Made by a program: the position numbers and the translations under genes. A DNA stretch of 64,000 nucleotides from Synechococcus sp. WH 8016 (GTDB taxonomy: Bacteria; Cyanobacteriota; Cyanobacteriia; PCC-6307; Cyanobiaceae): positions 1-64,000 of the forward strand of contig NZ_AGIK01000007.1 of NCBI RefSeq assembly GCF_000230675.1. Reading direction: 5' to 3'. Shown here piece after piece: positions 7,497-10,096 of this stretch. Within the stretch, counting starts at the first letter, position 1. Each line of letters begins with the position of its first letter. The notes beneath the pieces are model-generated. The model searched no databases. It was given only the letters and a program-made list of their open reading frames with translations, and was not told the DNA's origin.

Positions 7497-8594
7497 GTGA
7501 ACGACGCACAAGAGACTCCTCCACCCCTTCAGGGGAAAGTCTCTGCGGCTGTGCTTGCCGTTGTTGTGGTTGCAGCAGCGTTCGCATCAGACCGCTGGAT
7601 CCCCAACAGCCTGCTGAGCCTCCCTTTGCTGATAGCGACCTTGATCGCTGCAATCGTGACCTGGTGGGGGGTACCCAAGCTCCGTGACTTAAAGCTGGGG
7701 CAAGTGATCCGAGAAGAAGGGCCTCAGGCCCATCTCAACAAATCAGGCACCCCCACCATGGGTGGACTGCTGGTGGTGCCGGTCGGCGTGATCGTGGGCG
7801 GCCTGATCAGCTGGAGCGGTCGACCGGCTGAACAACTCTTAGCCGTGGCCTTCATCACACTCGCCTACATGGTGGTGGGAGGAATTGACGATTGGCGCAG
7901 TCTCACCAAACACACGAACACGGGTTTAACGCCACGCGGAAAATTACTTCTTCAAGCCCTAGCCGCTGTGATCTTTCTGATCTGGGCAGGAATGCGCGGT
8001 TGGATCGGTGGTGATGTGGCCTTGCCGTTTGACATCACCCTTCCCTTGGGCTGGCTGATTTGGCCTCTTGCCGTTTTTGTGTTTTTAGCCGAAAGCAACG
8101 CCACCAACCTCACCGATGGCTTGGATGGTCTTGCCGCCGGTTGCGGGGCCCTAGTGTTCACCGGCATGGCACTCCAGCTCACATTGCGGGGAAACAGCGG
8201 AGACCCAAACCTTGCTGGGTTCTGCATGGCCATGGCGGGCTGCTGGATTGGTTTCCTTGTGCACAATCGCAATCCAGCCCAAGTGTTTATGGGCGACACC
8301 GGCTCTCTAGCCATGGGCGGCGCTCTCACGGCTGTGGCCCTACTCACAAACAGCCTTTGGCCCTTGCTGGTGATGGGTGGAGTGTTCCTAGCGGAATCCC
8401 TCTCCGTGATCATACAAGTGTGGGTTTTTAAAGCAACCAAAGGCGCTGATGGTGTGGGTCGCCGGGTGTTCCGAATGTCGCCCTTGCACCACCATTTCGA
8501 ATTAGGAGGAACAGCAGAACAAACGGTAGTACCGGGATTTTGGTTGGCAACGATGGGGCTCGTATTAATCGGTTTAGCCTTGCGCCCCCTCTAA
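7497..8594 (+). CDS. mraY: Phospho-N-acetylmuramoyl-pentapeptide transferase
   Basis: Membrane enzyme that transfers phospho-MurNAc-pentapeptide from UDP to undecaprenyl phosphate, forming lipid I of peptidoglycan synthesis. The 365-residue protein has about ten membrane helices. Hallmarks are [10 protein letters not shown], the DDW Asp pair after [43 protein letters not shown], and the [10 protein letters not shown] loop with its HHH motif. The frame is open from 7446, but a good ribosome site (AAAGGA, 7484-7489) precedes GTG 7497, which gives a typical N-terminus. MurB and MurC are encoded separately at 53-56 kb. Confidence 0.96.
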
Positions 8595-8652
8595 TCAAAA
8601 ATCCAGCTCATCGCATGGCGTATGTGCCCTTGAAAAAGTCAGATCGCTGCAA

Positions 8653-9345
8653 TTAGGCAGCACGATCTTCTAAGCGTGAAAGATTCCAACCCATAGGCAT
8701 AGGAACAACCTTTGGCTTCGGCATTAACAGTTCGATTTCATGGCAAGCTTGCGAGTAGGCGAAAAATCCCGACATTCTTCGCCGATCAGATCTCCCACTT
8801 TTCGTGACTGCACGATCAACAGTGACTCCCTCAGTCTCAGCATTTTCAAAAGCATTCAACAATGGAATCTCTGTGTCAAGAACTTGGACATTGAAACCAC
8901 TCAAGATACTCCGAGCAAGTTGAATCGAAGCCTTCTTTCTCGCATCTGCCTTCACAATGAGTGCTGCATAAGGGATATCAAACTTATTGAGCATGCATGA
9001 CATTTCTACCGTTAATTCTATTGATCTACTTTGTGCCGTTGTAGGGAGAACAATAAAATCAGACCCTTCCACTAGATTCTTTAGTTCCTCTTCATTGCTA
9101 CTGGCCTGACCATCAGTCACGACAATTTCCGCACCTCTTGTTGCTTTTGCCGCCGCTTCCATCGGCACAACATCAAACGGGAGCAAACCTCTTGAGGCGT
9201 ATGCAGTGGCTGATCGATTGCGATCAGAATCAACCAGGACAACAGAGCGGCCACTATTGGCCCAATGAGCAGCAAGATGAATGCTTGTGCAAGTTTTAGC
9301 TACTCCTCCTTTTTGCCCAAAAGTAGTAACAAACACAATGTGCAT
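8653..9345 (-). CDS. Orphan ParA/MinD-type P-loop ATPase
   Basis: 230-residue ATPase of the deviant-Walker (ParA/Soj) class. The N-terminus carries QKGGVAKTCTSIHLA, with the signature Lys of KGGxxKT; the usual Gly before KT is Ala here. Walker A-prime is VVLVDSDRNRSA and Walker B is EIVVTDGQ. ParA proteins move plasmids, chromosomes or large protein assemblies by patterning on DNA. No parB-like or cargo gene lies next to it. It lacks a helix-turn-helix N-terminal extension, so it is a short ParA. It converges with mraY, and its upstream region is A/T-rich and full of direct and inverted repeats. Transfer from a plasmid or island is an inference. The family call is firm, the cargo unknown. Confidence 0.87.
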   Translation of the reverse strand: MHIVFVTTFGQKGGVAKTCTSIHLAAHWANSGRSVVLVDSDRNRSATAYASRGLLPFDVVPMEAAAKATRGAEIVVTDGQASSNEEELKNLVEGSDFIVLPTTAQSRSIELTVEMSCMLNKFDIPYAALIVKADARKKASIQLARSILSGFNVQVLDTEIPLLNAFENAETEGVTVDRAVTKSGRSDRRRMSGFFAYSQACHEIELLMPKPKVVPMPMGWNLSRLEDRAA

Positions 9346-9467
9346 TCATAGTGATAAATCCCTTATACCTCATAATCTAATTACCGCAAGAGGGGATGCA
9401 GAAAATTGTGATTATCAGAAGAGATACATGGATAAAAAAGACAGTCCCTTGATTCCAAGACTTAATC

Positions 9468-9489
9468 TAACCTTGCAATAACCTTGCAA
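9468..9489. repeat. Tandem 11-base repeat upstream of parA
   Basis: TAACCTTGCAA occurs twice head to tail (9468-9478, 9479-9489), about 125 bases upstream of the parA start. Spacing of one helical turn is typical of protein-binding iterons or operators. The second copy runs into the inverted repeat that starts at 9486. Confidence 0.8.
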
Positions 9490-9606
9490 ATGAGGCCCTC
9501 CTGCTCCCACAACTAACTATCGCGACAAAAGGCATCTTTCTGATTCTAATTAGAGCGATACCAATGAAATAAGTTAATATAAGTTTTAGCATTTAGCCTC
9601 ATTTGC
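9486..9606. repeat. 11-base perfect inverted repeat, 99-base spacer
   Basis: GCAAATGAGGC (9486-9496) and its exact complement GCCTCATTTGC (9596-9606). CTCCTGC (9498-9504) and GCAGGAG (9612-9618) form a second complementary pair just beyond, in non-nested order. It could be terminal repeats of a tiny element, paired binding sites, or an RNA structure. Confidence 0.75.
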
Positions 9607-9614
9607 GGCAGGCA

Positions 9615-9686
9615 GGAGTCATTGAGCCAATCAGAAACCAGCATCGGAGACTCTTTTTCTATCGTTTTCTATATCTCAGTGACTCC
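9615..9686. repeat. 12-base inverted repeat with one mismatch
   Basis: GGAGTCATTGAG (9615-9626) and CTCAGTGACTCC (9675-9686) are complementary at 11 of 12 positions with 48 bases between. On the plus strand the enclosed segment is pyrimidine-rich (CTCTTTTTCT). It lies between parA and the 87-residue gene, so it could be an operator pair or a structured transcript. Confidence 0.7.
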
Positions 9687-9832
9687 TACAACCGATCGCT
9701 TTTATAGATCTGGTAGAAGATGTTCATTGAGATCCACTATTGGCTGCAGACCAACCCAAGACAAGCAGGATCAGAGAAAACCCTAAAGCCCTAACACCAG
9801 TCCTCATCGACAGTCCCTTGGATCATCAGACC

Positions 9833-10096
9833 ATGAGCTACTTCACCTGGAAAGAAGCCGGCCTTACCAGCGACTGCCCCAGCCTTGAAGCGATGGCCTC
9901 CCGCTTTGAAGAAGCCGCCAGCCTGATGCGCCGGATGGCAAAAGAGGGCTTTGAGCTCCACTCACAGGGTCGTCAACAACGCATCACCCACAACGATGCC
10001 GAAGTCTTTGCCTCTTGGGGCTTCGTGAATGAAGAGCCCGCCTTCCGCCAGCTCACCTTGATCAGCAATCCAGCCAACGAGCCGCCCTCCCCCTAA
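9833..10096 (+). CDS. Conserved small picocyanobacterial protein, unknown
   Basis: 87 residues from the ATG at 9833, beginning MSYFTWKEAGLT. Two amphipathic helices (PSLEAMASRFEEAASLMRRMAKEGFEL) are followed by a short strand-like region with RITHNDAEVFASWGFVNEEPAFRQLTLI. The pattern resembles a small cyanobacterial family of unknown function that I recall from marine strains. Codons upstream of this ATG (from 9740) look non-coding. The stop TAA is directly abutted by the stop codon of the minus-strand gene at 10097. No function can be assigned. Confidence 0.75.
   Translation: MSYFTWKEAGLTSDCPSLEAMASRFEEAASLMRRMAKEGFELHSQGRQQRITHNDAEVFASWGFVNEEPAFRQLTLISNPANEPPSP

Follow-up and report, generated by a model that had tools for sequence, protein, structure and literature searches.

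An orphan ParF-type ParA ATPase at a variable spot beside mraY in Synechococcus sp. WH 8016

Introduction

The 64,000-nucleotide stretch of Synechococcus sp. WH 8016 analysed here (the window) encodes a short ParA-type ATPase, with A/T-rich, repeat-bearing DNA upstream and a gene for a small protein beyond. The locus raises the question of what such an ATPase does. A sequence-only reading had proposed an uncharacterised partition or positioning locus with the repeats as its DNA site, or else the remnant of a mobile element. We have examined the ATPase and its relatives, the DNA that surrounds the gene in other strains, and the genomes for a partner protein.

Results

Identity and fold of the ATPase

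The gene lies between mraY and a gene for a protein of 87 residues.

8653-9345, minus strand: parA, orphan ParF/type Ib-like ParA ATPase of 230 aa (CbiA, NF041546 and 3cwq matches)
7500-8594, plus strand: mraY, left flank of the spot, converging on parA
8595-9832, no strand: variable insert from mraY to the 87-aa gene, exchanged among strains; the exchange extends into the mraY 3' end, from about 8493
9833-10093, plus strand: 87-aa core protein, right flank of the spot, in 29/31 genus genomes

The short ParA-type ATPase with KGGVAKT that had been read from the letters is borne out by Pfam, NCBIfam and PDB matches. Its Walker motif, GQKGGVAKT, is the deviant Walker A of ParA/MinD ATPases, and the protein begins at the Walker A strand (MHIVFVTTFGQKGGVAKT) with no N-terminal HTH. 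The Pfam search identifies CbiA (E 1.4e-10, above the cut-off), and the NCBIfam model NF041546 (ParA_partition) matches at 7e-22 with 77.9 bits, below its 180-bit cut-off. The PDB sequence search gives 3cwq, a Synechocystis ParA (1.5e-21). The NCBIfam MinD models match at the P-loop only (E about 1e-4). The AlphaFold model of the protein is moderate (pLDDT 65.7, pTM 0.66); with this moderate model, Foldseek places 3cwq at rank 1 and TP228 ParF at ranks 3-7, and MinD, MipZ and McdA fall far below both.

The protein has the features of ParF-type (type Ib) ParAs, which have about 200-230 aa, lack an N-terminal HTH and are closest to ParF. The ParF/ParG type Ib system (TP228; 3cwq) shares with it a short ParA, the absence of an N-terminal DNA-binding domain and the deviant Walker A, and is the known system closest to it in fold and sequence. 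Plasmid relatives of the ParF/ParG type have a small overlapping downstream partner. The window copy, in contrast, is chromosomal, has neither partner gene nor centromere, and ends in a tail unique to its own clade. This C-terminal tail, IPMPxGWNxSRLEDRxA, is conserved, and its G-W and E-x-R recur in the wider clade.

Phylogeny, distribution and selection

Homologues of the window ParA (E 1e-10 or better) are found in 104/300 genomes of the family. The presence of the gene is patchy (82/197 good genomes) and parA is therefore dispensable. In a tree from which McdA was left out and in which MinD was not placed, the Cyanobiaceae ParAs are monophyletic and stand apart from other cyanobacterial and plasmid ParAs. 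The best matches outside the family show 31-38% identity over most of the length; the exception is one plasmid ParA at 41%. Clade A, which includes the window ParA, has the tail GWxxxxxExRxA and occupies many genomic locations with no common neighbour. The Cyanobiaceae group also holds clade C and the 28-row clade D/E. By sequence, the window ParA is a member of a Cyanobiaceae-specific branch of the ParF-type (type Ib) plasmid ParAs.

Pairs of parA sequences within the window subclade show 22-110 synonymous differences and give dN/dS values of 0.04-0.11, and this strong purifying selection indicates that the window ParA is probably functional. Broken copies are seen in relatives: parA is split by a stop in G089 and truncated in G295. 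Interruption or truncation at L097 (G089) and L098 (G205) indicates repeated loss in some lineages.

The insertion spot

The gap between mraY and the 87-aa gene is about 18 bp in most members of the genus. An intact parA is located at this spot in the window strain and four relatives, and 302 and 345 bp of A/T-rich DNA are located there in G075 and G295; the 87-aa protein of G075 is 97% identical to that of the window. Other strains have other genes at the spot, encoding a membrane protein, glutaredoxin-like at its N-terminus, in G101 and an outer-membrane-barrel-like protein in G222 (both read from the sequence), and a protein that by eye resembles CDP-glycerol transferases in G253, G156 and G169. 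Between the window and G075, identity drops abruptly at about 8493, within the 3' part of mraY, and resumes where the 87-aa gene starts. The pattern fits an exchange of cargo in which homologous recombination would act on the genes at either side. The variable junction of mraY and the 87-aa gene can be seen at window 8595-9832 and at L114, L118, L120, L121 and L137-L139.

Neither an integrase nor a tRNA nor attachment repeats were seen, and the window as a whole has no tRNA, which rejects a tRNA-associated island. A phage origin was also rejected; no viral contig matches, and the phage matches are distant mycobacteriophage ParAs. PADLOC matches are at the P-loop level only, which argues against a defence system, and Rfam gave no match for an RNA element.

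The small protein had been noted as conserved and as a possible part of the system. It is real and conserved, and has no tie to ParA: 29/31 genus genomes have the gene, with or without ParA, and the 87-aa protein is therefore not a partner. We have rejected it in that role as the product of a core gene kept in strains that have no ParA.

Upstream DNA and repeats

About 490 bp separate parA from the 87-aa ORF. With 41% GC, the DNA upstream of parA is confirmed as A/T-rich; the window has 56% and mraY 57%.

9346-9395, minus strand: shared upstream stretch, presumed parA promoter/leader (alignment to the other-locus copies, 76% invariant columns)
about 9472-9493, no strand: tandem 11-mer AACCTTGCAAt-AACCTTGCAAa, a duplication specific to one strain
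9486-9496 / 9596-9606, no strand: 11-bp perfect inverted repeat GCAAATGAGGC / GCCTCATTTGC, not conserved and probably due to chance

Two of the three repeats described in the earlier reading, the tandem 11-mer and the 11-base inverted repeat, are present in the sequence. The third, a 12-base perfect inverted repeat, was not found upstream of parA, where the only 12-base match, GACAGTCCCTTG at 9440 and 9809, is in direct orientation. Inside parA there is an inverted pair of 12 bases that is near-perfect (8799/9114). When 9346-9832 was shuffled 2000 times with dinucleotides preserved, 2.9% of the shuffles contained an 11-bp inverted repeat and 0.4% a tandem run of at least 11. The repeats are mildly unusual as sequence.

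The relatives G123, G034 and G283, whose ParAs are 93-95% identical to that of the window, are 11 bases shorter precisely at the tandem, and the second tandem copy is therefore a duplication in the window strain. One arm of the inverted repeat is left in G123 and neither arm in G034 and G283. Across the four strains, 20-48% of the columns are invariant in the repeat region versus 76-84% in the start of parA and the first 50 bp upstream; for the stretch 9346-9395 the figure is 76%, compared with 20-38% farther upstream. For the parA copies at other loci in relatives (G242, G297 and G089; L042/L043/L097), which show 79% DNA identity, homology ends at 9390-9395. As the other-locus copies align only this far, the transmitted unit is parA with about 50 bp, and the repeats are outside. 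The proposal that the repeats serve as the system's DNA site, a parS, is thus rejected by the strain comparison, a check that the earlier reading had itself set; the repeats lie in the most variable stretch of the block and are missing around the copies at other loci.

Search for a partner

There is no partner gene 3' of parA (none in 8595-8652, with mraY converging) and no neighbour on the same strand. McdB is likewise not found downstream, as there is no downstream gene. A PF02195 ParB, by which a chromosomal ParABS system is recognised, is represented in the window genome only by a sub-cut-off match of 24 bits in a 149-aa frame (G000:C4:129265-129456). In 20 ParA-bearing relatives the best match reaches at most 27 bits (88-aa frame), and there are a few sub-threshold or marginal ParB_N matches in frames of 88-100 aa. 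These short frames of the relatives, and the 149-aa frame of the window genome, probably encode sulfiredoxin rather than ParB. Apart from MinD, Mrp and other long-known relatives, the names of which were inferred from size and motif, the window genome encodes no further ParA. Of the components of a type Ib partition system, neither a small downstream partner nor centromere-like repeats are found at the locus.

A candidate partner in the sister clade

At 28/28 clade D/E loci, an ORF of 67-85 aa starting with MP[DN]FE[AK]L overlaps the 3' end of parA; it starts about 58-67 nt ahead of the parA stop, in a different frame. The encoded protein (the MPDFEAL family) consists of the N-terminal motif MPDFEALIRRQQ and one strongly hydrophobic segment, a membrane helix. 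The loci with this ORF at the parA 3' end include L055, L056, L057, L058 and L072-L092. A profile search found the family in 65/300 genomes, and a comparison of coordinates showed that 62/62 full-length matches overlap the parA 3' end. For the non-overlapping part of the ORF, dN/dS is 0.07-0.24 where a pair has sufficient synonymous changes; among the closest pairs it is 0.41-0.44 or, in one pair that has just one such change, uninformative. Neither Pfam nor NCBIfam has a family for the protein.

In all plasmid relatives inspected (8/8), the 3' end of parA abuts or overlaps a small gene on the same strand, and one of these genes is annotated as ParG. The closest plasmid match to the window ParA is that of S. 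elongatus UTEX 3055, at 41% identity. Its partner, encoded after parA (L143 3696-4340), begins MPNFEKLNR, the N-terminal motif that is also seen in the picocyanobacterial membrane partner; not one of 459,349 nine-residue windows taken from unrelated ORFs reaches its score. The remainder of the UTEX 3055 protein has a marginal DUF3102 match and no membrane helix. The MPDFEAL protein is probably a membrane-anchored ParA partner, previously unnamed. The most economical reading of the two proteins is that they carry a common ParA-docking N-terminus on two different bodies. Unlike the locus studied here, the UTEX 3055 pair is plasmid-borne, and no such partner is encoded in the window genome; the best match to the MPDFEAL family in a genome-wide profile search has an E of 0.41. 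The absence of a recognisable partner gene, already remarked on from the sequence, therefore stands at the locus, and genome-wide for ParB and the MPDFEAL family.

The tail of the window ParA is a weak candidate for a docking motif carried in cis, with a score of -5 and a rank of 2-12 when set against the protein's own windows. The tail ranks first only in the GWDF subclade, and there with low scores. In clade C, an 89-aa gene is located upstream of parA on the same strand, about 9 bp away, at nine loci (L050, L052, L069, L070, L082 and L101-L104); it has no PHROG match and possibly encodes another partner. The gene is absent from the window genome, and it was rejected as a general partner for that reason.

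Discussion

Our verdict is that the window ParA is an orphan and probably a domesticated ParA. On balance, it is probably a functional ParF-type (type Ib) ATPase that the host maintains; it would derive from a plasmid partition ATPase and is carried as accessory cargo at the mraY spot. It may have a role in positioning.

The strongest rival is that the window ParA acts as an incompatibility (anti-plasmid) factor, poisoning the partition of incoming plasmids that have related ParA-partner pairs. The precedent is ParI, an anti-plasmid ParA from Pseudomonas putida (PMC9178275); like the window ParA it is an orphan in an accessory island, a likeness of context. Plasmid ancestry, relatives on cyanobacterial plasmids and the accessory position in a cargo spot are all consistent with such a factor, which would need no partner. 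However, identity to the nearest plasmid ParA is just 41%, these marine strains have no known plasmid that matches in the collection searched, and the clade-wide conservation of the tail suggests an interaction with the host; we regard an anti-plasmid role as unlikely. That the locus is instead a decaying mobile-element remnant is improbable. The A/T-rich insert, the variable spot and the broken parA copies of G089 and G295 would be expected of a remnant, and two parts of the earlier suggestion survive, namely descent from a plasmid ParA and transfer into a variable spot. Decay does not, given the low dN/dS and a parA that is intact at the spot in five strains, and no integrase, tRNA or attachment repeats were seen.

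The two remaining alternatives are less probable again. Alpha-cyanobacteria reportedly lack McdAB (PMC12918739) and need some other means of spacing their carboxysomes, and the window ParA, the sole ParA of its type in the genome and like McdA a ParA-type ATPase of cyanobacteria, could be an unrecognised positioning ATPase in the McdA role. It differs from McdA in having no adjoining McdB-like gene and in its patchy presence, only 82 of the 197 good genomes, though carboxysomes are expected in all these organisms; McdA structures also rank far below ParF. We think this role very improbable. A partition or positioning locus that uses the upstream repeats as a centromere-like site is hardly credible. 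The repeats do exist and are mildly rarer than chance, yet they lie where the block is least conserved, are not conserved alongside ParAs of 93-95% identity and are missing around the other copies.

For the domesticated orphan that we favour, a mechanism can be proposed. The ATP-bound ParA dimer would coat the nucleoid nonspecifically. A partner encoded in trans would dock, probably on the conserved tail GWNxSRLEDRxA, and would stimulate ATP hydrolysis. Repeated binding and release would serve to position a cargo or to drive off a competing replicon. In the sister branch, the partner with the MPDFEALIRRQQ start would have exchanged its DNA-binding part for one membrane helix, and ParA would be predicted to act between the nucleoid and the membrane. 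More tentatively, the domesticated plasmid ParA and its membrane partner in small-genome lineages (1.5-2.0 Mb, a size that suggests Prochlorococcus-like organisms) may represent an undescribed form of nucleoid-membrane positioning, of which the window branch would be a derived version without the partner, spreading as single-gene cargo and acting on a host target bound by the tail; we consider this possible rather than probable.

The value of the window locus is mainly corrective, as the repeats and the 87-residue gene are not parts of the ParA system. For picocyanobacteria, the placement of nucleoid and carboxysomes is a question in its own right, with McdAB reported absent and no convincing ParB in the ParA-bearing genomes tested. 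A ParA under selection, together with the overlapping, membrane-anchored candidate partner of its sister branch, would provide a two-gene handle on this question, and they suggest a route by which plasmid partition ATPases may become host positioning proteins.
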